A DNA stretch of 64,000 nucleotides from assembly GCA_947449255.1 (NCBI GenBank), contig CANFQX010000006.1, forward strand, positions 1 through 64,000, read 5' to 3'. Numbering within the stretch: the stretch's first letter is position 1; each line of letters opens with the position of its first letter. The stretch is from Pseudobdellovibrionaceae bacterium (GTDB taxonomy: Bacteria > Bdellovibrionota > Bdellovibrionia > Bdellovibrionales > Bdellovibrionaceae). This document shows, one piece after another, positions 3,268-19,958 of this stretch. The notes below the pieces were generated by a model. That model was given only the letters and a program-made list of their open reading frames with translations, ran no database searches and was not told where the DNA came from. A program made the position numbers and the translations under genes.

Positions 3268-4647
3268 CTAGCCCAATCCCTCACCAAATTTCTTCTCTAT
3301 CTGGACGCCTAAACTCATCAAAAATTTATGCGGCATTTCTGCGCCAGCAAAGACAAAGACAAAATCATTTGGCAATTCAAGAACCGAGTCCGCTGTTTTC
3401 ACCGTGACCATGTCGGGTTTAATTTCTTGAATCGAGGAATTGTACAAAATAGTAACTAAATTTTTCGAGGCCATATCAGTAATTCGCTTGATGTTGTCCT
3501 CATTACAACGATCAAAAGTCTGACTTCGAACAAGCAGATGAACACGGTTATTCCATCTTTTTTCTCCGAGCATTTGTGCAGCTTCAACCCCTGCATTTCC
3601 TCCACCAACAACAATCACACCCTTATTTTGATACTGCTCTGGATCTATCAAATTGTAAGTTACTTTTGGAGTGTCCTCGCCCGGCACGCCAAGTTTTCTT
3701 GGACTTCCACGAACACCAATTCCTAAAATGACTTTTTTAGCGGTAAATTCGCCGGCATTCGTTTTTACTTTGAAAATTCCATCAACGGCTTCTAGATTTT
3801 CGAAGCGGGTCTGCTCCTTGATCTTCATTCCCGTTTTTGACCTTACCGAATTCCAATAGTCCAAGAGCTCTTCTTTACTAACTTTGTTCGATACAAATTT
3901 TTTAGTTCCTATGAGCGGTAAATCAAAGGGATGACTCATAACTACCTTCTGGCGAGGAAAGTTGTAGACAGTCCCACCAAAACCGCCCTGCTCAATCGTC
4001 AAATAGGACTTCTTTGCAGCAATGGCCGCCAAGCTTGCGGCCAAACCAGCAGGCCCAGCTCCAATGATCAATAGATCACAATCGGTTTTTTTATTGCCCG
4101 CATCGGCAAGATTTTTTAGTGCATCTTCAGCAGCAAGAATTCCTTGCTTAATGGCATTCCGGATCAGCCCCATCCCGCCAAGCTCCCCAGCAATATAAAG
4201 ACCTTTTACATTCGTCTCATAATTTTTTGTCAGCCTTGGAATATCCATCCCTCTGGTTTTTGTTCCAAAAACCAGTTTAATGGCGCCCATGGGACAGGCT
4301 CTTTCACACTCTCCATGGCCCACACATTTAGCAGGACCCACAAGAACGGCTTTGTGATTGATCATCCTTAAAATATCGCCCTCTGGACAAACTGTGGTGC
4401 ACGCGCCACAGCCCACACACATTGATTCTTCGACTTCGGGATGCAAAGTCATAGGTTCATTGGTGCCTGACTTAATTGCTTTATCTAGTAGTTTTTTAGC
4501 ATTTTTATGGTGGGATTCTCTTTTGAAGATTTGCAGAAAGACGAAGCCAAAAGCAAGCAAAAGAGCAATGGCCAAAACATGATCTGACAAAAAATTTAAA
4601 AAACCAAACAGAAATTTTTCTAATAAATGACTTTTTTGATCTTTCAT
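3268..4647 (-). CDS. Membrane-anchored 2x[4Fe-4S] FAD/NAD(P)-binding oxidoreductase
   Basis: 459 residues. One N-terminal membrane segment (about residues 20-42) is followed by a ferredoxin-like module. Its first site is CxxCxxCxxxCP (Cys77, 80, 83, 87). The second is CxxHxxCxxxCP, with His111 in place of the second Cys. Next comes a segment typical of the C-terminal end of flavoprotein reductases (GLYIAGELGGMGLIRNAI, residues 149-166), then the FAD Rossmann motif GAGPAG (196-201) and the nucleotide motif VVGGGNAGVEA near residue 350. The chain ends soon after the FVFVFAGAEMP segment. The order looks circularly permuted relative to thioredoxin reductase-like enzymes. It probably passes electrons between NAD(P)H, flavin and Fe-S centres at the inner membrane. 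It is convergent with the STAS-like gene and divergent from the diheme b gene. Confidence 0.75.
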   Translation of the reverse strand: MKDQKSHLLEKFLFGFLNFLSDHVLAIALLLAFGFVFLQIFKRESHHKNAKKLLDKAIKSGTNEPMTLHPEVEESMCVGCGACTTVCPEGDILRMINHKAVLVGPAKCVGHGECERACPMGAIKLVFGTKTRGMDIPRLTKNYETNVKGLYIAGELGGMGLIRNAIKQGILAAEDALKNLADAGNKKTDCDLLIIGAGPAGLAASLAAIAAKKSYLTIEQGGFGGTVYNFPRQKVVMSHPFDLPLIGTKKFVSNKVSKEELLDYWNSVRSKTGMKIKEQTRFENLEAVDGIFKVKTNAGEFTAKKVILGIGVRGSPRKLGVPGEDTPKVTYNLIDPEQYQNKGVIVVGGGNAGVEAAQMLGEKRWNNRVHLLVRSQTFDRCNEDNIKRITDMASKNLVTILYNSSIQEIKPDMVTVKTADSVLELPNDFVFVFAGAEMPHKFLMSLGVQIEKKFGEGLG

Positions 4648-4907
4648 TTTGCCTCATTTTTTGTTTTTATTAATTATATACCAAATTTTTTTGATGGGAT
4701 GCTCTTAGGAAAATTCCGGACCATCGTCTATTTTCAGTGATAAAAATATTTGTGCGCTTAGATCGGACTCTAAGAAAAAACCTATCCGTACACTAAATAA
4801 TATATACAGGCCCAAAATGGAGTTCCCAGACAATATACCAACTGGTTCTTGCAAATGCCCCAATTAATGCCAACAATAAATTGATCCTATGTGAGGCAAA
4901 AAAAATA

Positions 4908-5753
4908 ATGAAAAAATACATAAGCATTTGGCTTTTCATAACAACCTATTTGATTTTCGAATATTGGGCGCTTTCCAGACACTCTTCTTTAAGTCTGCTG
5001 CTTAGAATGCAAACTGCTGGCTTGATCCATGCTGAAACAAAAATTAGCACTGTCCCTGGCCGAGCCCTTAGCCTTTGGTTGGGCTACTTTGGATTCAGCC
5101 TCATGGTGCTCATGAATTTATATTCTGTACGAAAAAGATTTTCTTTCACTCAAAAATGGGGAAGCCTTACTAGCTGGTTAAATTTTCACATCTTTTGCGG
5201 AATACTTGGACCAACTTTTATTTTGTTTCATTGCAATTTGAAGGCTCGAGGTCTAGTTGGAATTTCTTTTTGGAGTATGGTCGTTTCATTCTCGAGTGGA
5301 ATTATTGGAAGATATTTTTTCACTCAAATCTTGAGGCGAAAAAGTGATTACGAAAAATCGGCGGCACAACAGCTCGTGGCTCTTGAGAAATTTCTAACAT
5401 CGGCACAGGTTGAGCTCACACCAGAATTCAAGACCAGCGCATTGAATGAAAGCTTAGAATTTGTGGGTGGATACCCTGGACAATCTGAGATAAATCCCTT
5501 GACCGCTTTTTTTTCATCTATCGCAGCTGACTCAAAGATGTTATTTGTAGATTTGCCAGTCCCTGTTGGATGGCCCTTAATATCAAAATATAGACTCAAA
5601 AATTATGCAATAAACAAAAGACGATCCCAATTTTTGAGCGCCTATCAAAGGCTGATGGGATATTGGCATGCTTTCCATTTCCCGTTTGCGGTCTTTATGT
5701 ATATTTCAGCGGTTATTCACATCATATCTTCGTTGATCTTTGTGAAATTCTAA
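4908..5753 (+). CDS. Putative diheme b-type cytochrome membrane protein
   Basis: 281 residues with about five membrane segments (near 5-23, 53-72, 92-110, 116-138 and 254-279). Two of them carry His pairs spaced 14 residues apart: His94/His108 and His257/His271. This spacing is that of bis-His diheme cytochrome b helices, in which each pair binds one haem near each membrane face. Between the fourth and fifth segments lies a soluble loop of about 110 residues. The ATG at 4908 is preferred over an in-frame TTG at 4881 because GTGAGG lies just upstream of it. It sits between the Fe-S flavoprotein and the System II genes, consistent with a quinone-reactive subunit. No specific family was recognised; the diheme call is an inference from residue spacing. 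Confidence 0.6.
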   Translation: MKKYISIWLFITTYLIFEYWALSRHSSLSLLLRMQTAGLIHAETKISTVPGRALSLWLGYFGFSLMVLMNLYSVRKRFSFTQKWGSLTSWLNFHIFCGILGPTFILFHCNLKARGLVGISFWSMVVSFSSGIIGRYFFTQILRRKSDYEKSAAQQLVALEKFLTSAQVELTPEFKTSALNESLEFVGGYPGQSEINPLTAFFSSIAADSKMLFVDLPVPVGWPLISKYRLKNYAINKRRSQFLSAYQRLMGYWHAFHFPFAVFMYISAVIHIISSLIFVKF

Positions 5754-5773
5754 CCGCTGATTTTAATCTGATC

Positions 5774-7423
5774 TTAGGACTTCACGAGTTGTTTCTTGTT
5801 TAAATAAAACTTGAACAGTCCTAACGCCAAGATAACTAATTGAACAATAACGAACAACGTGATGGCTGTTGCTCCGCCACTTGAGAAGCCGTAGGAATGC
5901 AATCCTGCAGCTAGAATGAAGTTGACACCATACCAAGCCATAACGACCAAAAGGTACGACACAGGAGCAAAGGCCAACAATTTAAAATCATTCACCCAGC
6001 CGATATATCTGGCATGCAGTAAAACCAAAAATCCCATATCAGCGATCAAGGCCCATGTCTCTTTTGGATCCCAGCCCCAAAAGCGGCCCCAAGAATAATC
6101 GGCCCAAATACCGCCAAGAATGATTCCCACAGTTAGCAAAAAACAACCCAACTGAATCATTCTGTAGGCATAGTGAGAATACTCAGAAAAGAACTTTTGG
6201 TTGTCTTTACTCAACCACAACCGAACAAGGGCTATATTTCCAAGAATCATGGCTACCGTAAATGCCGCATACGAAATCGTGATCGTAGTCACATGAGTTG
6301 ACAACCAAAAATTACTTCTCAAAACGGCTACGATGGGATCCATGTCAGGGCTTAATATCAGGGGAATCTGCTCTGTCAGCAGTAAAATTAAACCTGCCCC
6401 AACCAACATAAAACCGCTCACAAACCAATTTTTATAAAGAGTAAACAACATCAAACTAAAAACTATGACACCGAATGAAACCCAAATCATCGTTCCATAC
6501 ATATTAGTCACTGGTGCAAACTTAGTGATAAAGACCCTCATTGTTAAGCCCGCGATAAGGGGGATGAGGGGCAAAACTTGCAGCAAGTAACCAGCCTTCA
6601 CTGAGATCTTTTTTCGACTCAATTCAAATAGAAATAAGAAACCCGCCAAAATTGAGAGCACATAGCTCCAGAAAAATAGACTCAATTTATTAAAAAGAAT
6701 TTCAGTATCTAGTTTGTCTATATAGTGTCTAAATAGTTCGGGCACTTCTTGTAAACGCGATTGCTTAGTCAATTCTGCAGCCAAAGCTTGAGCTTCAACC
6801 ATCTTTTCTTGTTTCAAGGCCTCAGTATAAGATTTTATCGTCGTCGACAATATTCCGCCAGCGGCACTTTGATGACCACCATTAATAAGGCTAAAATCAA
6901 TAGCTCGACTAAAATGCTCACCAGTCACTATCTGCTGAAAAACGGCCATTTGACTGTAGACTTCTGAAATTTTCTTTTCTTCTTCGTTGAGCTTACCACC
7001 TTCTTCTTGTTTCTTAAAAATGGGCTCAGCCAGGTTTCCTAATGTTGAACTTTCCAAATCTGCCAAAGAAAAATACCTTTTATCTTTGGTGTACCCCAAT
7101 CGTTGCCGAAGATCTGGTGAACGCACTTCAATCATTGCGGCATAGGGCGCATTTGGTGATGAAGCTATTGCCAGATAGGTTTGAACTGGATCGGTTCCCC
7201 ACTTTCGATATTTACCTGTCAAAAATAAAATCGTTTCTCGAGCCAAAGTATCAAAGGGCTTTAGGCGTCCATTTTGGGTCATGGCAACACCATTGATTGG
7301 CTCAACCTGAATTTGCTGAGCCACTTGAATCACCTGCCTGAGTGATTCTTCGGGTGGGAGATTTTGGGAATGAACAGTCCAAGGGATTAAAAGCGAAAGA
7401 GCCAACAACAGATGTTTATACAT
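5774..7423 (-). CDS. ccsA: System II cytochrome c maturation protein CcsA/ResC with N-terminal periplasmic domain
   Basis: 549 residues. A signal peptide (1-19) is followed by an exported domain of about 230 residues containing NGRLKPFDTLARE, as found fused to CcsA in several non-model phyla. About eight membrane helices follow. The haem-handling WWD motif (WADYSWGRFWGWDPKETWA, near residue 450) and flanking histidines (STHVTT, AAGLHSYGF) are present. CcsA forms the haem-export and ligation module with ResB, attaching haem to CxxCH sites outside the inner membrane. It starts 4 bp after the resB stop, so the pair is one operon. The neighbouring 30-haem cytochrome is an obvious client. Confidence 0.9.
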   Translation of the reverse strand: MYKHLLLALSLLIPWTVHSQNLPPEESLRQVIQVAQQIQVEPINGVAMTQNGRLKPFDTLARETILFLTGKYRKWGTDPVQTYLAIASSPNAPYAAMIEVRSPDLRQRLGYTKDKRYFSLADLESSTLGNLAEPIFKKQEEGGKLNEEEKKISEVYSQMAVFQQIVTGEHFSRAIDFSLINGGHQSAAGGILSTTIKSYTEALKQEKMVEAQALAAELTKQSRLQEVPELFRHYIDKLDTEILFNKLSLFFWSYVLSILAGFLFLFELSRKKISVKAGYLLQVLPLIPLIAGLTMRVFITKFAPVTNMYGTMIWVSFGVIVFSLMLFTLYKNWFVSGFMLVGAGLILLLTEQIPLILSPDMDPIVAVLRSNFWLSTHVTTITISYAAFTVAMILGNIALVRLWLSKDNQKFFSEYSHYAYRMIQLGCFLLTVGIILGGIWADYSWGRFWGWDPKETWALIADMGFLVLLHARYIGWVNDFKLLAFAPVSYLLVVMAWYGVNFILAAGLHSYGFSSGGATAITLFVIVQLVILALGLFKFYLNKKQLVKS

Positions 7424-7427
7424 TTTT

Positions 7428-9335
7428 CTATTCCTCTGACTTTTTTGGTATTCGACCAGTATTAAAACGACTTCGCATCAACGTAAAGATGATAAATCCA
7501 AATGCTAAAATAAGACTTCCTAGGTATTTTATGGGTCGACCCGGATCCCTATTCACAGACAAAACTGTCACCGGAGGCTGTCCTGGGTTCATTATATAGC
7601 TCGCCTGATACAAAGTGAATCCTTCAATTTTTAGTGGCTCATTCATTGAAATGAGATGAACGCTTTGATCGGTCTCTAATTTCACTAAACTTTCATAGCT
7701 ATAAGGAGTCTCAGTCCCCGGATAGTCTTTTTTAGAGAATTTTTCTAAGGACAAAGAAAAGGGTAAGGCAAAGGTTTCGTTAGTAAATGCAAAACTAATA
7801 TTTTTCCCTGACACTTGAGCTGATTTAACGTCTCCTTGAGTCAGCCAAAAACCCTTTTCCATTCCCGAAGGTTTTATTAAAACTGCACTCGGGGGCATTT
7901 GCCCACCGGCAACAGGCTTAACAGCTCTGACATCCGTCACAGCTTCTGAACCAAAGCTGATGCTGGCCAGGAAAAGCTGCATTCCCATCCATGGCGTTTG
8001 AAAGGTCTCGCCTTCCTTCATTATTTTTTCTGCCACTTTTTTTCCGGCTTTAAGTAAAATGATTTTCACTTGGTCTGTTGCTTTGCGGTTCACATGGAAT
8101 TCTACAATATTGCCCGACCCCGCATTGGCCGGATTCATTTGCCGCGGAGGTTCCGCCGCACTTTCATGGGGTGCGCTCTCTGGGCTAGCAGAATGACCTT
8201 CCATGCCCTGAACAGCTGTGGTTCCGTCAGCCACAAGCTCCATTAAATAGCCATAAACGCCATCTTTATGTAAAGAAAAGCCAGAGTATTTTGCATAAAT
8301 GACTTCGCGAACATTTTTACCATCTTTTTCAATGGACAACTCTACCGCAGGATTTAAAGGAGAGGCCGGGTCCTCATTCTCAACAATTTTGTTGCTGGCA
8401 ACAATGGCCCGCTGAAAAGCCTTTACAACTTTAAAATGCACACCCTTGTAGGTGGCACCCTGAGGCTGTTTTTTTAAATCAATTCTGCTCACTTCGGATT
8501 TATCTTTGGCATCAATTAATTTCAGATAGAATGAAGCACCCGCCTTGGATTTGCTGACCACTACCTCTTGCTCCTCCACTTTGGAGGGCATTCTTTTGCT
8601 AGGACTTTCAGCCTGAACAACGTCTCCTTCATCAATAACTAATCTCAAAGTTGCGGGTCCCATTTGCATCTGTGGATTGTCAACGGAATGAAGCCATTCT
8701 TTGACATCAAAAAACTGACTTTTCAAACCAAAGCTGACACCAACAGGCCCTGAATTATCACTACTTCCTGAATAGCCTTTTTCAACTGCCGCAAACGGTA
8801 CAAATTTTTCTACTTGGACTATGTGACCGATCTGATCATTTATGAAGCCAAGATCTGAATGATCTTTTTCAAATAAAGTTTTTTCAAAGACAACAGAGTT
8901 AACAGTAGGCGAGTTTTCAAATTGATACCCAACCATAAGTCGAGGCATCATCACCATATTGTTTTTTTGGCCCTCTGGTATTTGCAAAGTTCCATCGATG
9001 CCATAATAGCTTGTGATAAAACTGCCCGCTAAAAGTGTCATAATTCCAATATGCGTAAGTACAAAACCAAGGTGACGTTTCTTCCATGGATACCTAGACA
9101 TCATCGAAGAAAAAATATTAAGCCAAAGCAGTGACAATAAACAGTAAAACCAGGTTGTTCCATACACCGCCATTTTTGCATACTCGGCATTGTGTAAGCT
9201 CTCAAAAATTGTACCCGCAGCGACCGAGATAATAATTCCCAGCATCACCGGTACAGCTAATTGTATAGAAGATATAAATTTGAAAAATTTATTTTGGTTT
9301 AAACGACAAATTAGACTTATAGTAAAATTGTGCAT
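7428..9335 (-). CDS. resB: System II cytochrome c maturation protein ResB/Ccs1
   Basis: 635 residues, longer than many ResB proteins. Three N-terminal membrane helices lie within residues 20-120, with the conserved HLGFVLTHIGI helix. A large periplasmic domain and a final helix near residue 605 (YLGSLILAFGFIIFTL) follow, the classic ResB layout. A Pro/Ala/Glu/Ser-rich insertion (about residues 375-405) interrupts the periplasmic part. ResB keeps apocytochrome available and binds haem with CcsA. GAGGG stands 5 bases before the ATG. It is divergent from the outer-membrane barrel gene across a 94-bp region with repeats. Confidence 0.85.
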   Translation of the reverse strand: MHNFTISLICRLNQNKFFKFISSIQLAVPVMLGIIISVAAGTIFESLHNAEYAKMAVYGTTWFYCLLSLLWLNIFSSMMSRYPWKKRHLGFVLTHIGIMTLLAGSFITSYYGIDGTLQIPEGQKNNMVMMPRLMVGYQFENSPTVNSVVFEKTLFEKDHSDLGFINDQIGHIVQVEKFVPFAAVEKGYSGSSDNSGPVGVSFGLKSQFFDVKEWLHSVDNPQMQMGPATLRLVIDEGDVVQAESPSKRMPSKVEEQEVVVSKSKAGASFYLKLIDAKDKSEVSRIDLKKQPQGATYKGVHFKVVKAFQRAIVASNKIVENEDPASPLNPAVELSIEKDGKNVREVIYAKYSGFSLHKDGVYGYLMELVADGTTAVQGMEGHSASPESAPHESAAEPPRQMNPANAGSGNIVEFHVNRKATDQVKIILLKAGKKVAEKIMKEGETFQTPWMGMQLFLASISFGSEAVTDVRAVKPVAGGQMPPSAVLIKPSGMEKGFWLTQGDVKSAQVSGKNISFAFTNETFALPFSLSLEKFSKKDYPGTETPYSYESLVKLETDQSVHLISMNEPLKIEGFTLYQASYIMNPGQPPVTVLSVNRDPGRPIKYLGSLILAFGFIIFTLMRSRFNTGRIPKKSEE

Positions 9336-9340
9336 GAATA

Positions 9341-9429
9341 CCCTCGATAAGTATTATCCTACGAGGACATTCTGTTATTTAGCAACTAAGATTAGCAACA
9401 CATAGCATATTCATCTTTGAGGTATTTAG
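9341..9429. promoter_or_regulatory. Divergent promoter/operator region between resB and the barrel-cytochrome operon
   Basis: The short gap holds a direct repeat TTAGCAAC (9379-9386 and 9392-9399, 13 bp start to start) and a small dyad GATAA-GTA-TTATC (9346-9358). On the plus strand TTGTGC, 18 bp and TATTAT form a fair -35/-10 pair. On the minus strand TTGCTA, 18 bp and TAGGAT is a weaker candidate. The arrangement suggests coordinated control of cytochrome maturation and the multihaem cytochrome by one regulator, which is not identified. Confidence 0.35.
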
Positions 9430-10758
9430 TTGAAACCTTTTGCACGTTTGCTCACGTTTCTTTGTTTAATCCCCTGCATTTCTTGGGGCACAAAGTACAA
9501 TGGTCGATTCACCCTTGGAGGATATACTTCCTTGGAGCGGTTTGATTCGGTGACAACAGGCTCTGACAAAAATGACTTTCAAACAGTCTCCTCAAGATTT
9601 TTTATCAAAGGCGAAGACATCAGCAACACCTCCTGGGATGCGGCACTAGACCTGCGAGATAAGCATGATTTTTTTGATAAATTAAACAAAGAAAATCTGA
9701 GCCTCACAGATCGAAATGAATTTCAACTGCGCCAGTTAAGCACTCAAAACTCCAGAGCGAATCAACTTATAACAACTCAATTTGGACGATTTCCGGTTAA
9801 AGAGGTCAGCTCGACTTTTGTCGATGGTGTTCAAGTCGAAGAGCATTGGAGTAAAAGCTGGACCTCATCTCTTTTCGGAGGACTTAATCCTCACAAGGAT
9901 GGACAAAGCTATCTTGAATTTGATTCTAAATCAAATGTCAGTGGACTCACTTTGACCTACAACCAACGTTCTTTGGACTGGAATAGAAACTTCTATGTAA
10001 CACATGCACTCACTTCATTATCTTATGACGGACATGTTGATCGTAATTTTCTATTTCAAAACTTGATTTATCAATGGCAGGAACAAAGCCGCGTTATGAC
10101 TTTGCTATATTATGATTTTGTTCCTCGACCCTATCTCCAGAACGGGTTCCTCAGTTGGCAGCAACAATGGACAGAAACAATAGCCAGCGAACTCAATCAC
10201 ACAACCATAGATGTTATTGAATATTCACGGAGGCAAAGTGTTTTAGAACAGCTGCCCTCAAGCCCCTTCCAAGAAAGCGAAGTTAAATTTATCTATAAGT
10301 TAAATAAACTTCAGGATCGATATTACTTACGCTTTAGCTCCGGAGAAAGAGCCGTGGACGGATTGAAATCCCAGAGCTCCGAATTGGGCTTTATCAGATC
10401 ACAAATTTTTGGTCCGAAATGGGATCTCTACACAGTCTTAGAGTCTAAAAAAAACTTCACTAGTCAAGATGGATACTTTCGGCTTGGTCTTGGATACTTT
10501 AGCCGTAAATGGGAGCTGAATCTAGACACCTCCTATGGGGTGCAGAATAATGATAATGGCACCACGAATCACCCAACATTGATTGATGCAACTTTGGCAT
10601 ATTACCTTTCAAGGAATACCTATGTTGCCTTTTCTGGACAGACCGCTTCAAATGAAGATGTAAAAATAATGAGTGGTTTCTTCAGATTAAGTTATCGCTT
10701 TGGCAACGAGGAGATTCCAGCTGTCCGAGATGGAGCTCCACCTAGAGGTCCCCTATGA
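9430..10758 (+). CDS. Outer-membrane beta-barrel protein paired with multihaem cytochrome
   Basis: 442 residues starting at TTG, with GAGG 8 bases upstream; no ATG competes near it. The signal peptide is residues 1-20. The rest is a series of short amphipathic strands rich in Tyr, Trp, Phe and Gly with polar loops (for example YYLRFSSGE, FFRLSYRFG), as expected for a barrel of roughly 16 strands. The stop overlaps the start of the 30-haem cytochrome (ATGA), so translation is coupled. By analogy with porin-cytochrome conduits of metal reducers, the barrel may seat the cytochrome in the outer membrane. No sequence similarity to MtrB or OmbB was recognised by eye, so that role is inference. Confidence 0.6.
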   Translation: MKPFARLLTFLCLIPCISWGTKYNGRFTLGGYTSLERFDSVTTGSDKNDFQTVSSRFFIKGEDISNTSWDAALDLRDKHDFFDKLNKENLSLTDRNEFQLRQLSTQNSRANQLITTQFGRFPVKEVSSTFVDGVQVEEHWSKSWTSSLFGGLNPHKDGQSYLEFDSKSNVSGLTLTYNQRSLDWNRNFYVTHALTSLSYDGHVDRNFLFQNLIYQWQEQSRVMTLLYYDFVPRPYLQNGFLSWQQQWTETIASELNHTTIDVIEYSRRQSVLEQLPSSPFQESEVKFIYKLNKLQDRYYLRFSSGERAVDGLKSQSSELGFIRSQIFGPKWDLYTVLESKKNFTSQDGYFRLGLGYFSRKWELNLDTSYGVQNNDNGTTNHPTLIDATLAYYLSRNTYVAFSGQTASNEDVKIMSGFFRLSYRFGNEEIPAVRDGAPPRGPL

Positions 10759-13298
10759 TAAAGTTATGGCTTACATTTATGATCCTGATTATTTCCATAA
10801 CTACCCTAGGTCAGTCGGAGGGAATATTAAATAAACTGCTTGCCCCTGGACCACTGATGAAGGGACATGCCGAATTTGAAAAAAAAGACTGCTTAAAGTG
10901 TCACGAGGCTGGAAAAGGCGTTTCTAACACTCAATGCTTAGATTGCCATAAGCCCATCAAAAAATTTGTCGACGCAAAAAAAAGCTTCCATGGACTAACA
11001 CAACAAACATGCACTGAATGTCACTCTGACCACAAAGGGAGGGACTATGACTCTCTCGCTGTTGATGAAAAGACTTTTAATCACGGCCAAAAGACTGGGT
11101 ATACACTTGAAGGAAAACATTCTGAGCTCAAATGTGCCGAATGTCATAAAACAAAATACACCGAAAAATCAATCCGAGCGGGTAAAACAAGATACTTTGG
11201 AGCCCAAGCTTCTTGCGTAAGCTGCCATAAAAAAGATGATAAACATCAATTTAAGGGTGAGTGGGCCAAAAAAGATTGCAACTCTTGTCATTCCCTTAAG
11301 TCCTGGAAAACAGAAATTAAGTTCGATCACTTTAAAGACACCGGTTACAAATTAGAAGGCAAGCATGCCGAAATGAAATGTGCCGACTGTCATGGTCCAA
11401 ATAAAACAACCAAAAAAATCACTTATAAATGGACTCGCTTGAAGCAACAGCAGTGTCTCACTTGCCATGCTGACCTACATAAAAACAACCTCTCTAAAAA
11501 ATTTCAAAATGGCCAATGCCTAAAATGTCATTCTCAAACTGAATGGAAAATCCCAAAATTCAATCATCAAGTCACTGGCTACCCACTGCGAGGAAAGCAT
11601 TTCGAAATCAACTGTATCGAATGTCACGACCAGAAGAGCCTTTTTGGTAAAAAAGCAGCCAAATCAGGGACTGATAAAAAAAGTGAAGTGAAAAAAGAAA
11701 TTAAGCTAGAGAATAAAATTGATGCAAAACACTTTAACTTCACTGGACTTAAGCCAGCCTGTTTAAGCTGCCATACTGACTATCACAAATTTGGCAAGAT
11801 CAAGACCGAACACTTCCAAGATCCCAATAAGTGCCAAAACTGCCACACAGAGACCAGCTGGAAAAAAGTAACTGCTTTTGATCACAATAAGCAGACTCAT
11901 TTTGTCATTGATGGGAAACATCAAGAGATCAACTGCCTTGGCTGTCACGTTGAGAATATTGTCACCAAAAAACCACTGCCCATTGGGATCTACAAATGGT
12001 CACAGCTGAAAGCAAAAAACTGTGAAACTTGCCATCAAAGTCCTCATTTAAAATCCTTCAGCTCCGCACTTTTGAAAAAGCAGTGCACGGAATGTCACAT
12101 TACTAGCAGCTGGTACGATATGAAATCAGGGACCAGTTTTGACCATAGCAAGACTCGATTACCTCTCTCTGGAGCCCACACACAAACAAAATGTGCTGAC
12201 TGTCATGGCAAAAGTGGTAAGCAAGTCTTTAAGTTTAAATCCGTAGATCTAAAATTCTGCATTGATTGTCATCAAAATATTCATACAAACCAATTTTCTA
12301 AATCCCTCAATATTCAAAATTGTTCTCAATGCCATCGCACTGAAAACTTTAAGGATAGATTGAACTTTGATCATTCTACGACCCGGTATCCATTGGATGA
12401 ATCACACAACAAAATCAAATGCGAAGAATGCCACAAACCCAGCGGCCAAGAGATCTTCCTTTTGAAGCCAAATATTCATAGATTAAACAAAGCCAGTCTG
12501 CCTGATAAATTTGCATTTAAATTAACTCAATTTAAAATGCCCAAAGTAGAGAAGACAGAATGCTTAGCCTGCCATACAGATTATCATAACGGCCAATTGG
12601 GCAGCCAGTGTCTCAATTGCCACTCGATAACAGAATGGAAAGAGACCAAGTTTGAGCACAACAAGCAAAGTCGATTTCAAATTCTTGGAAAACATGAAAA
12701 TGTGAAGTGCAGCGAGTGCCACAAGCCACTTTCAAATCAGTTTGTGTCTTACAAGAATAAGCAAAGAAATGTGACCCTTTTCAAACCCCTTGCAGCTCAA
12801 TGCAACACTTGTCACAAAGATGTTCACAGTGGCTCCTTCGGTAAAAAATGTGAAGAATGTCATACTGAAAAAGGATGGAAAATCACCAAGGACTTCCATA
12901 AGAATTTCACTTTAACTGGTGTCCATTATTCATTGGCCTGCAATGAATGTCATCGGGGCGAGCGAAAACTATCCGGCATGAGCAATCAGTGTCTTACATG
13001 CCATGCAAAAGATGATGTCCACAGTGGCACTTTGCCACAATGCCAGGAATGTCACCGCCAACAGTTTTGGGAAGTCGCGGGGTTCAAACATTCCCTCACC
13101 CAGTTCCCACTGCGAGGTGCTCATCGTACACTAGACTGTATGGAGTGCCATAAAACTGGAACCTACAAAGGACTTAGTTCACAATGTGCGAGCTGCCATC
13201 TGCAAGCTGCAATTTCCACTATAAAATTCAACCATGTGGCGGAGCCAAACTTTATGAGCCGCTGTACAGAATGTCATAAGAATCACTTCAAGTGGTGA
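10755..13298 (+). CDS. 30-haem c-type cytochrome (cytochrome c3/c7-like repeats)
   Basis: 847 residues with a signal peptide (1-19). Thirty canonical CxxCH motifs are counted, spread from residue 46 to near the C-terminus. Many occur in a repeat of the form F.H..(T)GY.L.GKH....C..CH followed by a second CxxCH 25-60 residues on; the extra His residues are candidate distal ligands. A Lys/Glu-rich linker (about residues 300-325) and another near 580-600 separate haem blocks. Translation is coupled to the barrel gene by a 4-bp overlap. Likely periplasmic or surface-exposed long-range electron carrier, matured by the ResB/CcsA pair encoded nearby. Its gene ends directly against the convergent tlpA-like gene, with no spacer. 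Terminal acceptor or donor is unknown. Confidence 0.88.
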   Translation: MIKLWLTFMILIISITTLGQSEGILNKLLAPGPLMKGHAEFEKKDCLKCHEAGKGVSNTQCLDCHKPIKKFVDAKKSFHGLTQQTCTECHSDHKGRDYDSLAVDEKTFNHGQKTGYTLEGKHSELKCAECHKTKYTEKSIRAGKTRYFGAQASCVSCHKKDDKHQFKGEWAKKDCNSCHSLKSWKTEIKFDHFKDTGYKLEGKHAEMKCADCHGPNKTTKKITYKWTRLKQQQCLTCHADLHKNNLSKKFQNGQCLKCHSQTEWKIPKFNHQVTGYPLRGKHFEINCIECHDQKSLFGKKAAKSGTDKKSEVKKEIKLENKIDAKHFNFTGLKPACLSCHTDYHKFGKIKTEHFQDPNKCQNCHTETSWKKVTAFDHNKQTHFVIDGKHQEINCLGCHVENIVTKKPLPIGIYKWSQLKAKNCETCHQSPHLKSFSSALLKKQCTECHITSSWYDMKSGTSFDHSKTRLPLSGAHTQTKCADCHGKSGKQVFKFKSVDLKFCIDCHQNIHTNQFSKSLNIQNCSQCHRTENFKDRLNFDHSTTRYPLDESHNKIKCEECHKPSGQEIFLLKPNIHRLNKASLPDKFAFKLTQFKMPKVEKTECLACHTDYHNGQLGSQCLNCHSITEWKETKFEHNKQSRFQILGKHENVKCSECHKPLSNQFVSYKNKQRNVTLFKPLAAQCNTCHKDVHSGSFGKKCEECHTEKGWKITKDFHKNFTLTGVHYSLACNECHRGERKLSGMSNQCLTCHAKDDVHSGTLPQCQECHRQQFWEVAGFKHSLTQFPLRGAHRTLDCMECHKTGTYKGLSSQCASCHLQAAISTIKFNHVAEPNFMSRCTECHKNHFKW

Positions 13299-13814
13299 TT
13301 AATTATTGATCAATTTTGAAAAGAAGCTTTCAACTTGGGGGTTTTCGAATGAAATCGAGCCCTCAAATTTTTGAATCAGCTTGAAATCTCTTCCATAGAC
13401 ATAAGTTTCAGGTAACTTATAAATATTGTACTTTTGAGACCACCTACGACTTTGGTCATGAATAAGAAATACGTTGGCGTTTTTTGCCGCAGGAAAAAGT
13501 TTTAAGAATTTTTGCATTTCTTTGGCGCTCTCGTCTTCAGAGACTGAAATAAGAACAACCCCTTTGGGAAATTTTTTGACCAGTTTTAAAAGCGAAGGTG
13601 TTTCCTGCATACACGCCGGACACCAGGAGGCCCAAAAATTCAAAATGATGATTTTGCCCTGCAAACTGCTTTCCGGAATTTTATCTCCATTAAATGTCAC
13701 AGACTCAGCAACCTGCATTTTCAGTTGATTATCGGCATTCGACTGATCATTCTTTTTTGTGCATGATAGGGATAAAAACAAGAAGCATAGCAAGAGCATA
13801 TTTTTTAAAATCAC
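13299..13814 (-). CDS. TlpA/ResA-like thiol-disulfide oxidoreductase lipoprotein
   Basis: 171 residues from a GTG with AAAGGG 6 bases upstream; an ATG at 13859 in the same frame lacks a ribosome site. The short signal ends LSLSC with Cys18 as lipid site. The thioredoxin fold follows, with active site WCPAC (Cys65/Cys68) and downstream cis-Pro region (KLPETYVYG). Members reduce the CxxCH cysteines of apocytochromes before haem attachment, which fits the adjacent 30-haem cytochrome and ResB/CcsA genes. It is convergent with the cytochrome gene, stop to stop. Confidence 0.8.
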   Translation of the reverse strand: MILKNMLLLCFLFLSLSCTKKNDQSNADNQLKMQVAESVTFNGDKIPESSLQGKIIILNFWASWCPACMQETPSLLKLVKKFPKGVVLISVSEDESAKEMQKFLKLFPAAKNANVFLIHDQSRRWSQKYNIYKLPETYVYGRDFKLIQKFEGSISFENPQVESFFSKLINN

Positions 13815-13921
13815 TTTTTTCCCTTTTGACAGTTTTTTAAATGCTTCACCTAAAGACATTAAAGCATTGCAACTCTCAAATCCATTCTGATTTTAAAAAT
13901 ATATTGATTTGGCTTTCTGAC

Positions 13922-14299
13922 TTATTTGATTCCAGCCGGACAAAAGCCTGGTCGTGGACCTATTGATGGAAATTGCCTGCAAGTATCAGGTCTCTGCTCA
14001 TAAACCGTGCAAAGTCGCGTCGTTGAATTTAAAAATCGACAGTCCTGATTTTCTTTTTGAGCTAATATAAAAAACTCTGTCCCTTTTTGATAGGACTGAA
14101 TGAATCCTTCCTTAAATAGCCGCTTCGCAAGTTTACTGATCGACCCCACGGCCTCAGCTTCAGTCGCAAGCCCCAAACTAAGCAAATCTGAGATTTTAAT
14201 TTCAACGGGCATTGTACAGCAGCCACCCCAGCAGCCATTGCATAATGTATTTTGGTATTCTTTCCAAGTTGAGGGACGATATATATCAATTTTTTGCAT
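13922..14299 (-). CDS. YkgJ-like cysteine-cluster protein
   Basis: 125 residues with the Cys pattern of the YkgJ/Fe-S (zinc) cluster family: CNGCWGGCC near residues 19-27, then C near 87, C near 97, and RPDTCRQFP near 103 with a final FCPAG. Such small proteins bind a metal or Fe-S cluster; their function is largely unknown. The gene lies 14 bp after the polysaccharide deacetylase on the same strand and could be the last gene of that operon. A second family member occurs at 26612-27067. Confidence 0.7.
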   Translation of the reverse strand: MQKIDIYRPSTWKEYQNTLCNGCWGGCCTMPVEIKISDLLSLGLATEAEAVGSISKLAKRLFKEGFIQSYQKGTEFFILAQKENQDCRFLNSTTRLCTVYEQRPDTCRQFPSIGPRPGFCPAGIK

Positions 14300-14313
14300 T
14301 TAAAAACTCAATA

Positions 14314-15453
14314 TTAAGGTAGCTTCTTTCGAATCAGTTTACTGTTGTACTTCAATTTCGGATCAGAAGACTGAAGCAATACCACGCTATACCCTCTGGT
14401 ATAAAGCTCTCGTAAGAATTCCGGCAGAATTTCTGCGGTTCGGCGCTGAATATCATGAAAAAGAACAATTCCTAAGCCGCGAGCCTCAATCTGCGCTAAA
14501 GTATTATGTATAAGATGACTGTTGCTTTGTGCTCGCCAGTCCTGACTGTCTATATTCCAATAAAACTCACCCGTTGACGACATTTTTAGATAATTTCTGA
14601 GGTTTGGCGCTGAAGCTCCATAGGGAAACCGAAAAATTGGATCGACCCATCCAAGAACATCATAAACAGCCTGATGACCTCCGCGAATTTCAGCAACGGC
14701 CGCATCAAAAGTGTACTGATGTCCCCCATTTGCCCTTCCACACTCCTTGAGATTTCCAATGCAGGAGTGGGTGATGCTATGAGATCCAACCATGTGCCCA
14801 TCCGCAGCCACCAATTTGGTGATCTCAGAATTCAAGCGTACAGCTTTTCCTAGCTCAAAAAAGTGGGCTTTAGCATTCACTTCCTTTAAAGAACGTAAGA
14901 TTGAGCGAGTGTAGGAGTCACTCGGACCATCATCAAAAGTTAAAACAATCTCTTTTTTTGCAACGTCCCCAGAATAAGCAAGATACCCCTTAGAGTAATC
15001 TCTAAGCTGGACGTTATCTTGGAACTTAAAATTATTTGATGATCGTTGAGATCTGAGTGCATTCACTTGCACGCTCAAATTACTTCGCTCAGCCGCAAAA
15101 TATTCGTCTAATCTTTGTAATAAAGCGTCTTTACAGCCCGCAATAAAAAACTGATTTGATTCCCTGCGAATTTCTTCTTCGAAAATGGACAAGGATTGGC
15201 CACTCAATCCTATCAGCTTTTCACAAACCTCTGACATCAGCTTCTCTTTTTCACTCTCTGATTCCGCAGCTTGGTTGCGCCATTCGCCAAAGATCACTTC
15301 CGGATGCCCGGAGGAGGAGTCCCATTCTACGATTGTCTTGGCTGATTGATTATCTTCGATTGATTGATTGATTTTATTTTCAACTTTTCCACCGCAACCA
15401 ATCAAAAAACATAAACCTGACAAATAAATTCCGAGTCCTGCACGCTTCTTCAT
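14314..15453 (-). CDS. Polysaccharide deacetylase lipoprotein (NodB homology)
   Basis: 379 residues. Lipoprotein signal with LIGC (Cys20), then a helical, charged region to about residue 150, then a NodB domain. The catalytic set is intact: TFDDGP (Asp174/Asp175), SHSITH (His225/His229), RFPYGAS, and LFHDI near the end. These enzymes remove N-acetyl groups from chitin-like glycans, peptidoglycan or exopolysaccharide using a divalent metal. It is downstream of Wzz-like, O-antigen ligase-like and SLBB genes, so a surface polysaccharide is the likely substrate, although peptidoglycan is also possible in a predatory lineage. Four GATT units at 15358-15373 lie in the linker after the lipid site. 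Confidence 0.8.
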   Translation of the reverse strand: MKKRAGLGIYLSGLCFLIGCGGKVENKINQSIEDNQSAKTIVEWDSSSGHPEVIFGEWRNQAAESESEKEKLMSEVCEKLIGLSGQSLSIFEEEIRRESNQFFIAGCKDALLQRLDEYFAAERSNLSVQVNALRSQRSSNNFKFQDNVQLRDYSKGYLAYSGDVAKKEIVLTFDDGPSDSYTRSILRSLKEVNAKAHFFELGKAVRLNSEITKLVAADGHMVGSHSITHSCIGNLKECGRANGGHQYTFDAAVAEIRGGHQAVYDVLGWVDPIFRFPYGASAPNLRNYLKMSSTGEFYWNIDSQDWRAQSNSHLIHNTLAQIEARGLGIVLFHDIQRRTAEILPEFLRELYTRGYSVVLLQSSDPKLKYNSKLIRKKLP

Positions 15454-15490
15454 ATTTCTTCCTCAAATCGTTCTCTAATTTTAAATTAAT

Positions 15491-16858
15491 CTACAAAACT
15501 GATATTTCTGGCTGCTTTTCTTGTGAACTTTCACTGTCCATAAAACTCAGATCAGCACTATTAAATGGTTTAACCCCAGCCTTAAAACAGTTAGAAAAGC
15601 CAATATTCTTCTCTTTCGAATGAACATCGTGAAAATAAGTTGGATTCCACAAAAATTTAAAATACACGACAAAACATCCCAAAACTTGACTCAATAAAAT
15701 AGAAATCATGGCCAAGGAGGAAAGACTTAACAGTGGCAAGGTGTTCTCGATTCGAGCTCTTTCCAGCACCTCAAATCGAGTATCAATTGAGAATTTTGCA
15801 GCTTCCAGCTTTTCAAGAGCAGTACTGAGCTCTCTATATCTCAGATATTCAATTTCAGATTTCTTTTTCAACGTCTCGGAGATTTCCGATTGATGGGGAA
15901 CCTGCTTTAAATCTGTCTTCAAACGACTCACAGTAAGCAAAACTTCGCCAAGCTTACCCTCCAAGATTTCATTTTCTGAATTTATTGAAGATATTCTTCC
16001 AGCAATTCCATAGAGTGCACTTTCATTCAATCCCGTTCGCTGCTGCTCTAAGCGATTAATAAGATTTTTATTCTCAGCAATTTTCATTTTAATTTCATTT
16101 GTACGTACGAATAACTCAGCAACGTAATCGGCAATTTTGTCTTTGGATGCAAATGGGATTAAATTATCTTTCAAACTTTGGTTTCCGACAATCTGTGCGC
16201 CCAGATTTTTAAGATTTAAATCCGCGTGCTCTTTTTGCTCGGCAATAAAGACTTCAATTTTTGAGATCTCTTGGAGCTCCCGCTTCATTAATTCACTGAT
16301 GGCAAGTTCACTCATCGTATTTGCAATAAACAAGGAGATTCCTCTATTGGGCGAGGACACTGCGATTTTTATTTGGAAATCAGATTCTAAAGTGACTTTA
16401 ATCCAATGGTCCAATTTTTGTAACAGTTCAATTTTCTTTTCTTCGCCGCTAAAATTGTTTAGATAATGATCTCTAAAATTTTCGAAACCTTGTCTTTCAT
16501 CAAAACTAATCTTTGAACTATTTCCACGTCGAGAAATTTCCAGCAATAAAGCCTCAAAAAATTCTCTGTTTTTCAAGAACTCGATTTGCCTTGAAAGCAG
16601 GCTAGATCCCTTTTTAGCCTCTTGAACAGATTTTGAAAGTCCAAAAAATTGACTAGAAAAAGCTTGCAATGAAGAGTTTTGGGAATCATTAAAAACGACG
16701 ATTGCATTGGCAACATAGGGCATTCGGAGCATAAAAAGCAAAATACTTCCGCTAAAAAATAGAGCTGCAAAGGATAAAAAAAAGCGCCAGTGGGCTAAAC
16801 AAACTGCAAAAATGTCTTTGACTGATAAATCCGCATCCGCTGTTTGGTTCTCTTTCAT
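15491..16858 (-). CDS. Wzz/GumC-like polysaccharide chain-length determinant
   Basis: 455 residues. The ATG at 16858 is preferred over the in-frame GTG at 16873 because GGAGGGGAGG lies between them. The layout is typical: membrane helix near residues 27-47, a long periplasmic coiled-coil region (about 150-370), and a second helix near 385-405, then a short cytoplasmic tail. No Walker motifs follow, so the tyrosine-kinase domain of fused versions is absent. It would set polymer length and bridge to the export machinery. It is in one transcript with the SLBB and O-antigen ligase-like genes. Confidence 0.75.
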   Translation of the reverse strand: MKENQTADADLSVKDIFAVCLAHWRFFLSFAALFFSGSILLFMLRMPYVANAIVVFNDSQNSSLQAFSSQFFGLSKSVQEAKKGSSLLSRQIEFLKNREFFEALLLEISRRGNSSKISFDERQGFENFRDHYLNNFSGEEKKIELLQKLDHWIKVTLESDFQIKIAVSSPNRGISLFIANTMSELAISELMKRELQEISKIEVFIAEQKEHADLNLKNLGAQIVGNQSLKDNLIPFASKDKIADYVAELFVRTNEIKMKIAENKNLINRLEQQRTGLNESALYGIAGRISSINSENEILEGKLGEVLLTVSRLKTDLKQVPHQSEISETLKKKSEIEYLRYRELSTALEKLEAAKFSIDTRFEVLERARIENTLPLLSLSSLAMISILLSQVLGCFVVYFKFLWNPTYFHDVHSKEKNIGFSNCFKAGVKPFNSADLSFMDSESSQEKQPEISVL

Positions 16859-16981
16859 TAGCCTCCCCTCCACGGACCCAAAAAATGGGGACGTGAATAT
16901 AGTTCAGCATTTCTTGTGCCACTTTTTTTAAGATTTTGCCTGTGTTTTATCAGCAATGAAAATTACGAGCGGGAAAATAAT

Positions 16982-18265
16982 TCAAGCCAGAACATTTTTT
17001 GTCGCCAAAACTGCTAACATTCCGAACATTAGCCAGTATATTCGATCGGCCATACCGCCGATGGAAAGATGAACATGATAAATCATTAATATTGGCAGGT
17101 GAGTCAAAATATATACAGCAATTTGTTTTTGTGGAAACGGAACCTCAGCAAGAACCTTAAGCCCCCCCACCAAACAGACAAGAACTGCCATCAGTGACCA
17201 CAAAACCAACGGCCAACCCCCAGTCACCCCAGCTGAGATAAAAACGTTGTGAGGGTCCTTCATCGCATTATAATTGCTGACATCAACATCATGCCCTGAA
17301 GTGAATTTCGATAAGAGACCATGCCCAAGCCAAGGCTGCTCTTTAAAAGTTTCATATCCCCGCAAAACCTCATCCCACCGTGATCCCACACCATCCTGTG
17401 CTTGACGTGCGCCCAAGGCGGCCTTTCCCGTAGCAACCGCCTCTGCATATTCATAAGTATCTAAACCAAAAAAAACGGTAAAGCTTAAAATGAAGCTAAG
17501 CACCGACATTTTGAAAACCAGTCCCAGATGAGTTTTGACACTGTGAAAGATCAAGATCAGAGCCGCTGCACACATTGCAGCCAATACTGATGACCTTGTC
17601 CCAGTCATCACGATAGCGAGGAAGCTAAATGCGACAAGAACAAAGGACCAAATATTATGTTTCATTTTCTTTAAAAAAAGAAATTCATCTAGATTCAAAA
17701 TAAAGGCCACAGTAGCACAGGTCACCATATGGGGGATATGTTTAAAAATACCGATAAAACGGCCGCCCTTAAAAAGGACTGAGCCTGCTATTGGTAGCAG
17801 AAGAATCGAAATAAAAACTAAACTTGAGGACCATTTTTTGACGTAACTTACTATCCGATCAACACTCCACAAACTGGGAATAGCAACCCCATAGACCAAC
17901 ACCATAAATACTGACATCAAAAGTGATCCTATTTGCAAGAGTGGTGAGTCTTCAATGTTAACATAGATAATTTGAAAAATGGTTTGCATGCAGAGAATTG
18001 CAATCAAAAAGAAAACGATCCAAAAATAGAGACCATTCATCTTAAAATATCGGGGTCCCTTGATCCACAACAGCTGCAGGGGTAAACCGAAAATCAATAC
18101 TCCTGCCATATTCAAATAGGGATGCAACCCATGTTGAAATATTAAAAAAGAAAACTCACTGGGCACCACAAAAAATACTGCAAATGATATTTTTGAAATA
18201 AAAATCAACGACAACAATGCCTTAATTAAAAAGCTTTGACGAAGTTCAGACATCTCTTTTTTCAT
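16982..18265 (-). CDS. O-antigen ligase / Wzy-like polymerase family membrane protein
   Basis: 427 residues with about ten to eleven membrane helices and the periplasmic loop motifs of the WaaL/Wzy family: GGRFIGIFKHIPH near residue 165, GTRSSVLAAM near 215, WLGHGL near 310 and DPHNVFI near 330. The start overlaps the SLBB gene stop (ATGA). With Wzz-like and SLBB neighbours, polymerisation of a surface polysaccharide is the more likely job than transfer to lipid A, but the two are not separable by sequence reading. Confidence 0.75.
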   Translation of the reverse strand: MKKEMSELRQSFLIKALLSLIFISKISFAVFFVVPSEFSFLIFQHGLHPYLNMAGVLIFGLPLQLLWIKGPRYFKMNGLYFWIVFFLIAILCMQTIFQIIYVNIEDSPLLQIGSLLMSVFMVLVYGVAIPSLWSVDRIVSYVKKWSSSLVFISILLLPIAGSVLFKGGRFIGIFKHIPHMVTCATVAFILNLDEFLFLKKMKHNIWSFVLVAFSFLAIVMTGTRSSVLAAMCAAALILIFHSVKTHLGLVFKMSVLSFILSFTVFFGLDTYEYAEAVATGKAALGARQAQDGVGSRWDEVLRGYETFKEQPWLGHGLLSKFTSGHDVDVSNYNAMKDPHNVFISAGVTGGWPLVLWSLMAVLVCLVGGLKVLAEVPFPQKQIAVYILTHLPILMIYHVHLSIGGMADRIYWLMFGMLAVLATKNVLA

Positions 18266-18816
18266 TTTCTTTCCGAATATTTCTGAATCAGAACCGCCGA
18301 GAGCAAAGTGCCCATGATGACAGAAATTACGGTAAAATTTCGTGAAGTTTCTGTACTAAGCCATGTGGACTTTTGAGGAACATACACAAAATCATCTTGC
18401 GCAAGTTTAAGTTCATCGGCTCCACCAAACTTAATCAATTTTTCTGCATTCACTTCAAAAGCGCCTTGATGTTCATTCACGGCACCAGATTTTATGTTAG
18501 ACCAAGAGTGTGGTGTTTGCTTGCGAATGAGGAGCTCTGAAACATCCCCATTATTTAATGAACCACCAGCCAAAGTGAGTAGCTTCAACAAGTCCGTATT
18601 TGATGGGACATAATAGACCCCTGGCTTATTGACTGCGCCCAACAGTTGAACACTGATCAGTGACTCTTGCGCTGTGGACCTGAAAATATATTCGGATGCT
18701 TGCTGAGGCGGTCGGACATCATTCAATAAATTAATCTGCTGCCCGTTACAAATACTTAATCCGTTAATTACCAAAACCCCGGAAATAAAAAAATGTGCGA
18801 TTTTTTTAGACCTCAC
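18262..18816 (-). CDS. Single SLBB-domain polysaccharide export protein, membrane anchored
   Basis: 184 residues starting at GTG, with AGGAGG 7 bases upstream. Signal peptide 1-25, then an SLBB domain (VQLLGAVNKPGVYYV, then DLLKLLTLAGG) and a C-terminal membrane helix near 160-178. The polysaccharide-export (Wza) domain that normally precedes SLBB is missing and the protein is half the size of Wza, so it is not a complete outer-membrane channel. First gene of the operon SLBB - ligase-like - Wzz-like - deacetylase. A TTGACA box about 65 bases upstream may be its promoter. Confidence 0.7.
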   Translation of the reverse strand: MRSKKIAHFFISGVLVINGLSICNGQQINLLNDVRPPQQASEYIFRSTAQESLISVQLLGAVNKPGVYYVPSNTDLLKLLTLAGGSLNNGDVSELLIRKQTPHSWSNIKSGAVNEHQGAFEVNAEKLIKFGGADELKLAQDDFVYVPQKSTWLSTETSRNFTVISVIMGTLLSAVLIQKYSERK

Positions 18817-18899
18817 GTGAAAACCTCCTGGTGTACCACTGGACCTACATCGGGAACCCAGATACCTGTCAATAAATTTCGATGACTTGACTTCGGTCT

Positions 18900-19958
18900 A
18901 TGATTAACAATTATGAAATGATAACAACTTCATCTTCTGAACACGAAAAAATTTTTGATGATATTTGCAACAAAATGAACGACCTGAGCACTCCTTCGCA
19001 TGAAGAGGAAACCCAGGCCACTCAACCAAAGTATGAACAAATGCAGGTCCAGATGAGAAAGTTTCACACCGAGCTTAAAGACTCTCAAGATGAGCTTCGG
19101 GAAAAAATTAAAACCCTTGGAAATGTTTCTTACGGTTCTGAAACAATCCACGTTCAGACGCAACAGCTTGCAGACCAATTAGGGGCAGAACGTGTCAACA
19201 ATGCAAAAATGAGTGCTGATCTAGCCAAGTCTTTAGAGCTGAGTCTACAACTTCAGCTTGAAATTCAAAGCATTAAATCCAGATCTCTTCAGATTCAAAG
19301 CGAAGACAAAAAATACAGCCAGTCTCTATTAGAAAAAAACAATACTCTGCAAAGAGACCTTGAACTGTCCAATGCCTTGAAAGATGAAACGGCTCTTGAA
19401 CTGCTAAAAGCCAAAAACGCCTATATTGGGGAGCATGCGCTTTGGAATGAACGCCAAGGGCATTTTGAAAACCAAATTAAGACTTTAAAAAATAACCAAA
19501 TGGAATGCGAACAACACATTCAGACCTTGGATGAATTAATTATTCAAAAAGACGAAAAGATTGCTCTCTTGCACCAAGAGATCGAAAATATTTCGAAATC
19601 ATTCAGTGAAGTTGAGCTCTCAGCACAACAACAAAATGAAGTTTTAAAGAATCTTATGGATGTGGCGGAAACTAAAATTATCGAAGTCAAAGTAGCTTTG
19701 GATAAAAAAACACTTGAGTCACAAGATTACTACAGTCACCTTCAACAAGCGCTCAATCAAGCTGGCATCTTAAGACAAGAAAATACGGCACTGAAAGAGT
19801 ATGTGACAAAATTGAATTATTTTTATCAGCAGTCTCAATTGGCGCAAAATCAAATGGCAGCATCGCAATCAAGCCCGGTTGTCCAAAATCAATCCCCTAG
19901 TGCAGAACTGGCAAACATTCCTTCAGCTCCGACCTGCCTTAACTCCAAAAGAAAATAA
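18900..19958 (+). CDS. Coiled-coil protein of unknown function
   Basis: 352 residues, no signal peptide or membrane segment. Residues 40-310 are almost continuous heptad-like sequence rich in Gln, Glu, Lys and Leu, ending in a Ser/Pro/Gln-rich tail. This is a cytoplasmic rod or scaffold by appearance. It is divergent from the polysaccharide operon and ends at a strong terminator. No convincing ribosome site precedes the ATG at 18900; an in-frame ATG at 18918 is an alternative. No family was recognised. Confidence 0.65.
   Translation: MINNYEMITTSSSEHEKIFDDICNKMNDLSTPSHEEETQATQPKYEQMQVQMRKFHTELKDSQDELREKIKTLGNVSYGSETIHVQTQQLADQLGAERVNNAKMSADLAKSLELSLQLQLEIQSIKSRSLQIQSEDKKYSQSLLEKNNTLQRDLELSNALKDETALELLKAKNAYIGEHALWNERQGHFENQIKTLKNNQMECEQHIQTLDELIIQKDEKIALLHQEIENISKSFSEVELSAQQQNEVLKNLMDVAETKIIEVKVALDKKTLESQDYYSHLQQALNQAGILRQENTALKEYVTKLNYFYQQSQLAQNQMAASQSSPVVQNQSPSAELANIPSAPTCLNSKRK

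Follow-up and report, generated by a model that had tools for sequence, protein, structure and literature searches.

Can a member of the Bdellovibrionota carry electrons from its cytosol to the outside of the cell, and from which donor would they be drawn? The question is raised by seven genes at positions 3268 to 13859 of the window, by which we mean the whole stretch of DNA that was analysed, the first 64,000 nucleotides of contig 6 (CANFQX010000006.1) of a Pseudobdellovibrionaceae bacterium (GCA_947449255.1; 3.2 Mb in 34 contigs, 99.97% complete). A first-pass annotation had seen six redox and maturation genes together here and proposed a candidate new porin-cytochrome conduit. All seven genes are open frames, and Pfam and NCBIfam matches bear out the assignments of the Fe-S flavoprotein, CcsA, ResB, the cytochrome and TlpA (Table 1). 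We consider it likely that the locus encodes a trans-envelope electron conduit of PCC3 type, leading from NAD(P)H to the outside.

The cluster is not a product of chance, because the gene set is kept across dozens of genomes. Among 369 genomes of the phylum, profiles matched the outer-membrane barrel in 29, the Fe-S flavoprotein (FeSFAD) in 27 and the diheme b-type protein in 27 (counted at E < 1e-35), with all three present in 26. The hypergeometric probability of such co-occurrence is about 1e-35 to 1e-39, a value that ignores kinship among genomes. The triple is broken in a fragment (G029), in G313 and in G170, where barrel and diheme-b are both shortened by contig ends. The long cytochrome directly follows the barrel in every locus with a long enough contig, mostly with the 4-bp overlap of barrel stop and cytochrome start that the annotation had reported in the window and that we find as well; the few larger overlaps probably reflect the choice of start codons by a mechanical caller of open reading frames. 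The barrel thus does not behave as an unrelated porin, an outcome that the annotation had kept in sight. Near-obligate co-occurrence, gene overlap and a 22-stranded barrel together give good support to a porin-cytochrome conduit with its own maturation genes. In two carriers a gene is split over two frames, FeSFAD in G144 (L162, 3640-4981) and the cytochrome in G351, by frameshift, sequencing error or decay.

The AlphaFold2 model of the barrel has 22 beta strands (pLDDT 85.4). Fold searches with it returned outer-membrane barrels from PDB (porins, ushers, TonB-type); MtrB was not among the matches listed, which says nothing on its relation to MtrB, and by sequence the barrel profile matched nothing in PDB. 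According to a geometry formula with assumed shear numbers, the backbone radius is about 20 Å, vs 23.5 Å for 26 strands, and it is plausible that the modelled lumen is roomy enough for a haem wire. In loci of Bacteroidota and Melioribacteraceae, the cytochromes are followed by a protein of about 540 aa for which hhalign indicates homology with the window barrel at a probability of 98-99%, against 0.1-0.3% for shuffled and reversed controls. The absence of MtrB similarity, first judged by eye, holds at the sequence level, though the folds may be related: the genome has no match to PF11854 (MtrB_PioB), and hhalign gave a probability of 1% with MtrB of Bdellovibrionota. On sequence, we reject membership of the locus in the MtrAB type. 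MtrAB has been described in other Bdellovibrionota (PMC13200544). MtrB_PioB homologues do occur in some genomes of the phylum, several of them adjoining 10-haem cytochromes, and four genomes (G327, G328, G336, G337) hold both MtrB and a barrel of the present cluster type.

The first count of 30 CXXCH motifs in the cytochrome is exact; the protein has 35 additional His and no additional Cys, and all its CXXCH motifs align and are kept in seven homologues. It appears to be composed of about ten triheme modules. The haem count is a multiple of three (21, 24, 27, 30, 33 or 36) in 30 of 31 untruncated homologues of the family, and the sole other count, 20, comes from one part of a cytochrome that is divided between two frames. 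Bacteroidota homologues, which often have 20 or 23 haems, show that the rule does not hold everywhere. Each three-haem step would extend a wire spanning the periplasm. The annotation had also considered a known soluble nitrite or sulfur enzyme, and no curated family of this kind matches the cytochrome above cut-off; NrfH, HmcA and others match pieces of it at scores far below. The MtrA/DmsE-type profile TIGR03508 likewise matches pieces alone (89 bits against a cut-off of 192).

What the early inventory overlooked is a second multihaem cytochrome of a different family. In most relatives it lies beside or near FeSFAD and diheme-b and carries about 4 to 42 haems; those read fully and with a complete N terminus have a lipoprotein-like start. 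The window cluster has no such extracellular cytochrome. The same genome encodes a 17-haem homologue of it at C9:69990-72431 (minus strand), with a lipoprotein-like N terminus (FQNC), and this protein is likely the surface partner of the conduit. Elsewhere in the window, 61813-62325 encodes a putative lipoprotein that also has an N-terminal FQNC, a lipobox-like motif common to several surface cytochromes of the group.

The identity of the inner-membrane component is given by its motifs. The diheme-b protein (290 aa) contains W99-X3-H103-X13-H117, S139GIIG143 and W262-X3-H266-X13-H280; across 38 homologues drawn from several phyla, SGxxGR, W262 and all four His never vary. These motifs match exactly those described by He et al. 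2017 (PMC5566968) for the inner-membrane protein (IMP) of PCC3 and PCC4, a protein roughly 300 aa long that carries two WX3HX13H motifs and SGXXG, and we therefore assign diheme-b to this IMP family. In PCC3 the IMP is described as having five transmembrane helices, with the motifs on the third, fourth and fifth (same reference); a simple hydropathy scan of the window protein placed two segments over threshold.

If electrons pass through diheme-b, FeSFAD is the candidate for their source. Its N-terminal transmembrane helix leads into a group of basic residues; then come two Fe-S motifs, CxxCxxCxxxCP and CxxHxxCxxxCP, and a TrxR/YpdA-like FAD/NAD(P) domain. The eight cluster Cys first counted have to be corrected to seven Cys and one His: in the second motif His replaces the second Cys in 52 of 52 homologues, and the corresponding position of the first motif is Cys in 40 and Ser in 12. 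One of the two patterns used in the FeSFAD scan included this His, so sampling is partly biased; the neighbours aligned in A1, like the Pseudomonadota sequences, came to light via diheme-b. The C-terminal FAD segment (TNVxGLYIAGE) stands before the GxGPxG Rossmann motif, which amounts to a circular permutation. HMMER aligns pieces of FeSFAD to solved TrxR/YpdA chains in permuted order; by strict regular expressions the order is recovered in 34 of 52 homologues, the other 18 miss one or both motifs, and no counter-example was seen. The CxxC of TrxR is absent. Ferredoxin:NADP+ reductases of YpdA/TrxR type have this domain family in common with FeSFAD, but keep the order FAD-NAD(P)-FAD, whereas FeSFAD is permuted and carries two Fe-S motifs and a membrane anchor in the same chain.

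Some more distant relatives of the IMP are flanked by NAD(P)H-FAD-2Fe2S proteins and a 7-haem cytochrome. One of them, on the Glaciecola plasmid pGLAAG01 (L166, 6971-10457), lies between two such genes and immediately upstream of those for a NiFe hydrogenase. Further distant relatives in Pseudomonadota adjoin a protein with Pyr_redox, cNMP-binding and Fer4 domains (two were checked against Pfam) and a 10-haem cytochrome; these loci are perhaps PCC4. Both kinds of neighbourhood support the logic of flavoprotein to b haem to c haem. The annotation had proposed that the Fe-S flavoprotein and the diheme protein link NAD(P)H and menaquinone, and fold family and gene context speak for the NAD(P)H part.

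The presumed pathway would then run as follows. FeSFAD, anchored in the inner membrane and facing the cytoplasm, would load electrons from NAD(P)H onto its FAD and two Fe-S clusters. Diheme-b would take them across the inner membrane via two b haems to the 30-haem cytochrome, which would span the periplasm and thread the 22-strand porin. The 17-haem lipoprotein cytochrome at the surface might finally hand them to an external acceptor, for example Fe(III), humics or flavins. ResB, CcsA and TlpA would mature the haem proteins of the cluster locally, the TlpA/ResA-like protein holding the CXXCH cysteines reduced for haem attachment.

The system extends well beyond the phylum. We scanned 84,980 species with exact short FeSFAD peptide patterns and annotated the neighbourhoods, which samples the distribution and is no full census. 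FeSFAD, a diheme-b homologue and multihaem cytochromes occur together in metagenome-assembled genomes of Saprospiraceae, Flavobacteriales, Melioribacteraceae and Nitrospinaceae, and an isolate, Emticicia oligotrophica DSM 17448, has the same gene set on its plasmid pEMTOL02. Searching 398 Pseudomonadota genomes with the IMP profile gave five strong matches (149-163 bits). All five loci contain a cytochrome with 21-24 haems that belongs to the window family (336-442 bits), and further multihaem cytochromes; in three of them, large proteins resembling porins are present as well, and so is a homologue of FeSFAD that scores 457-497 bits and is 41-44% identical to the window protein. Their layout is that of PCC3, and we use "PCC3-type" on the strength of signature and layout, not of the published Sideroxydans sequences.

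How new, then, is the conduit? The earlier claim of novelty has to be narrowed, as the IMP and the families of the long and the surface cytochrome correspond to PCC3 (PMC5566968; PMC10734462). Both systems have a porin, an extracellular cytochrome family, the IMP motifs and a long periplasmic multihaem cytochrome, with 21, 24 or 27 haems in Gallionellaceae and 21-36 in the window family. What stands of the claim are the variant features. The window porin has 442 aa and 22 strands, whereas the porin-like proteins of the Pseudomonadota loci have at least 720 aa and He et al. report up to 42 predicted transmembrane regions; ResB, CcsA and TlpA lie in the cluster; and the surface cytochrome is unlinked in this genome. 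The locus is thus probably a compact PCC3-type variant with a 22-strand porin, its own System II genes and a surface cytochrome that probably lies elsewhere in the genome. PCC4 (He et al. 2017) has the same IMP motifs, a porin, periplasmic multihaem cytochromes and Fe-S and redox genes nearby, but its cytochromes carry 4, 5 or 10 haems and none is extracellular; in the loci that we tentatively assign to PCC4, the Pyr_redox protein is unpermuted and has cNMP-binding domains, unlike FeSFAD. MtrCAB, MtoAB and PioAB resemble the proposed conduit in their porin-embedded cytochrome and surface lipoprotein cytochrome. They differ in porin sequence, in having 10 haems in place of 30, and in the use of CymA or quinol where the window has diheme-b and a flavoprotein. 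The OmbB-OmaB-OmcB and Ext conduits of Geobacter, also a porin with two multihaem cytochromes, are analogous in function, with other haem numbers and inner-membrane partners. Finally, ferric reductases and NADPH oxidases (FRD, PF01794) also have two HX13H helices, two b haems and an NAD(P)H-FAD feed. In the window, by contrast, the proposed donor is a protein of its own, the permuted TrxR-like Fe-S flavoprotein, and a c-type wire would be the acceptor; a Pfam search gave no match of diheme-b to PF01794.

The main texts of PMC5566968, PMC10734462 and PMC12442390 do not mention a FeSFAD enzyme. In the literature consulted we found no description of a PCC3-type system in Bdellovibrionota, Bacteroidota (including Emticicia oligotrophica), Nitrospinota or Ignavibacteria, and none of porin and multihaem cytochromes in Saprospiraceae or Emticicia; among papers that touch on Bdellovibrio and extracellular electron transfer, the one consulted, PMC11495043, does not describe this system. 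Seemingly new are therefore its wider phyla, the conserved permuted input enzyme with the invariant His, and haem counts divisible by three in almost every case.

Table 1. Genes of the cluster, with positions in the window and the basis of each assignment.
Feature	Position	Strand	Basis
Membrane-anchored Fe-S flavoprotein FeSFAD	3268..4647	-	Pfam Fer4, Pyr_redox_3; permuted alignment to TrxR/YpdA structures; invariant Cys/His
Diheme b-type inner-membrane protein, PCC3/PCC4 IMP family	4881..5753	+	WX3HX13H pairs and SGIIG
CcsA/CcsB-type haem lyase subunit, System II	5774..7423	-	Cytochrom_C_asm 4.9e-24; TIGR03144 CcsB 5.2e-39
ResB/Ccs1-type subunit, System II	7428..9335	-	PF05140 ResB 2e-19
Outer-membrane beta-barrel, 442 aa, signal peptide	9430..10758	+	AlphaFold2 model, 22 strands; PDB matches
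30-haem periplasmic c-type cytochrome, 847 aa	10755..13298	+	30 CXXCH, signal peptide; Cytochrome_C7/c3
TlpA/ResA-like thiol-disulfide oxidoreductase	13299..13859	-	AhpC-TSA/Redoxin; ResA PRK03147 2.4e-18

Families were assigned by Pfam and NCBIfam profile searches with family cut-offs. The TIGR03144 match of CcsA scores under its equivalog cut-off and the PF05140 match of ResB above its cut-off; barrel and diheme-b match no family above cut-off. The listed frame of diheme-b begins with TTG at 4881, and the starts of its homologues lie closer to ATG at 4908. Besides the TlpA gene, which recurs next to the cluster in relatives, the maturation genes form an additional set, since a second ResB/CcsA pair is present on contig 10. 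There (locus L036, 1274-12061) the pair adjoins candidate genes of an Alternative Complex III, judged by size and haem pattern: a 5-haem protein, proteins of 1056, 453 and 174 aa, a 1-haem protein and one of 399 aa.

Three other explanations have to be weighed. In the first, the IMP oxidises menaquinol and feeds the wire from it, with the flavoprotein merely adding or recycling electrons. Cytochrome b-type diheme proteins often exchange electrons with quinones, and He et al. 2017 (PMC5566968) hypothesised such a role for PCC3; HX13H pairs, however, also match the ferric-reductase/NOX type, and the distant IMP relatives adjoin NAD(P)H flavoproteins, so we regard this as rather unlikely. In the second, the conduit leads inward: Fe(II) or another donor is oxidised at the surface, and its electrons join the respiratory chain or the quinone pool. 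The description of PCC3 comes from Fe(II) oxidisers and includes a model in which electrons reach the quinone pool (He et al. 2017), the record title places one group of carriers in sediment of Lake Pavin, and two haem-copper oxidases as well as a likely locus for Alternative Complex III are present in the genome. We nevertheless think it unlikely: the conserved flavoprotein belongs to an NAD(P)H-reductase family, transfer from Fe(II) to NAD(P)+ via the b haems would have to climb in potential and work against the membrane potential, as follows from general bioenergetics, and Bdellovibrio-type predators are generally known as heterotrophs. That there is no conduit at all, the cytochrome serving to store electrons in the periplasm or as a soluble reductase, and the barrel being an ordinary co-transcribed porin, would fit the generic porin and TonB-type matches in PDB and a cytochrome whose structure could not be modelled, but is very improbable given the strict barrel-cytochrome adjacency across the phylum and the homologous barrel beside multihaem cytochromes in Bacteroidota.

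Several points also weigh against the preferred outward conduit fed by NAD(P)H. The evidence for it here consists of genes and predicted models. We infer both the NAD(P)H donor and the direction of flow from fold family and gene context, and a quinone link is what He et al. proposed for the IMP. The AlphaFold2 model of the cytochrome (pLDDT 49.3) was discarded, so wire geometry and fit to the barrel are hypothetical. The 17-haem partner is unlinked to the cluster. Homology of the barrel to PCC3 porins is suggestive, with a hhalign probability of 45% (E 2e-4; reversed control 0.3%) against three porin barrels of Pseudomonadota. Lastly, the function of PCC3 is untested even in iron oxidisers (PMC12442390).

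As to the origin of the cluster, barrel, FeSFAD and diheme-b were found in 0 of 23 congeners; the genus is probably Bdellovibrio, judging from the family names given to relatives. The right flank (13922-19958) is syntenic in the six congeners compared, at 49-75% identity, and synteny stops at the cluster; the contig starts just to the left, so the right edge alone is visible. In the FeSFAD tree, the window protein groups with metagenome-assembled genomes of Bdellovibrionaceae and Bdellovibrionales, with weak nested support. Judging from these sequences, horizontal gain and inheritance with many losses are equally possible. A CxxCxxCC gene beside the cluster (in the region 13860-19958) is kept in 23 of 24 genomes of the genus, this one included.

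A broader proposal, which we put forward tentatively as a serious possibility, is that PCC3-type conduits in general are powered by a dedicated permuted NAD(P)H-FAD-FeS enzyme with an invariant-His cluster, not by quinol. They would represent a split NOX/ferric-reductase module that exports cytosolic reducing power over a modular triheme wire, its length varying in three-haem steps, even in the predatory lineage of Bdellovibrio. Why does a probable Bdellovibrio that has aerobic oxidases retain an outer-surface wire found in none of 23 congeners? Until now, the cytochrome cluster PCC3 had neither an explanation for its inner-membrane protein nor a known source of electrons. The presence of FeSFAD in Bdellovibrionota, Bacteroidota, Nitrospinota, Ignavibacteria and PCC3-type loci of Pseudomonadota offers a concrete, testable candidate for the donor, and in Emticicia oligotrophica DSM 17448, with the whole system on pEMTOL02, a named isolate is open to testing.

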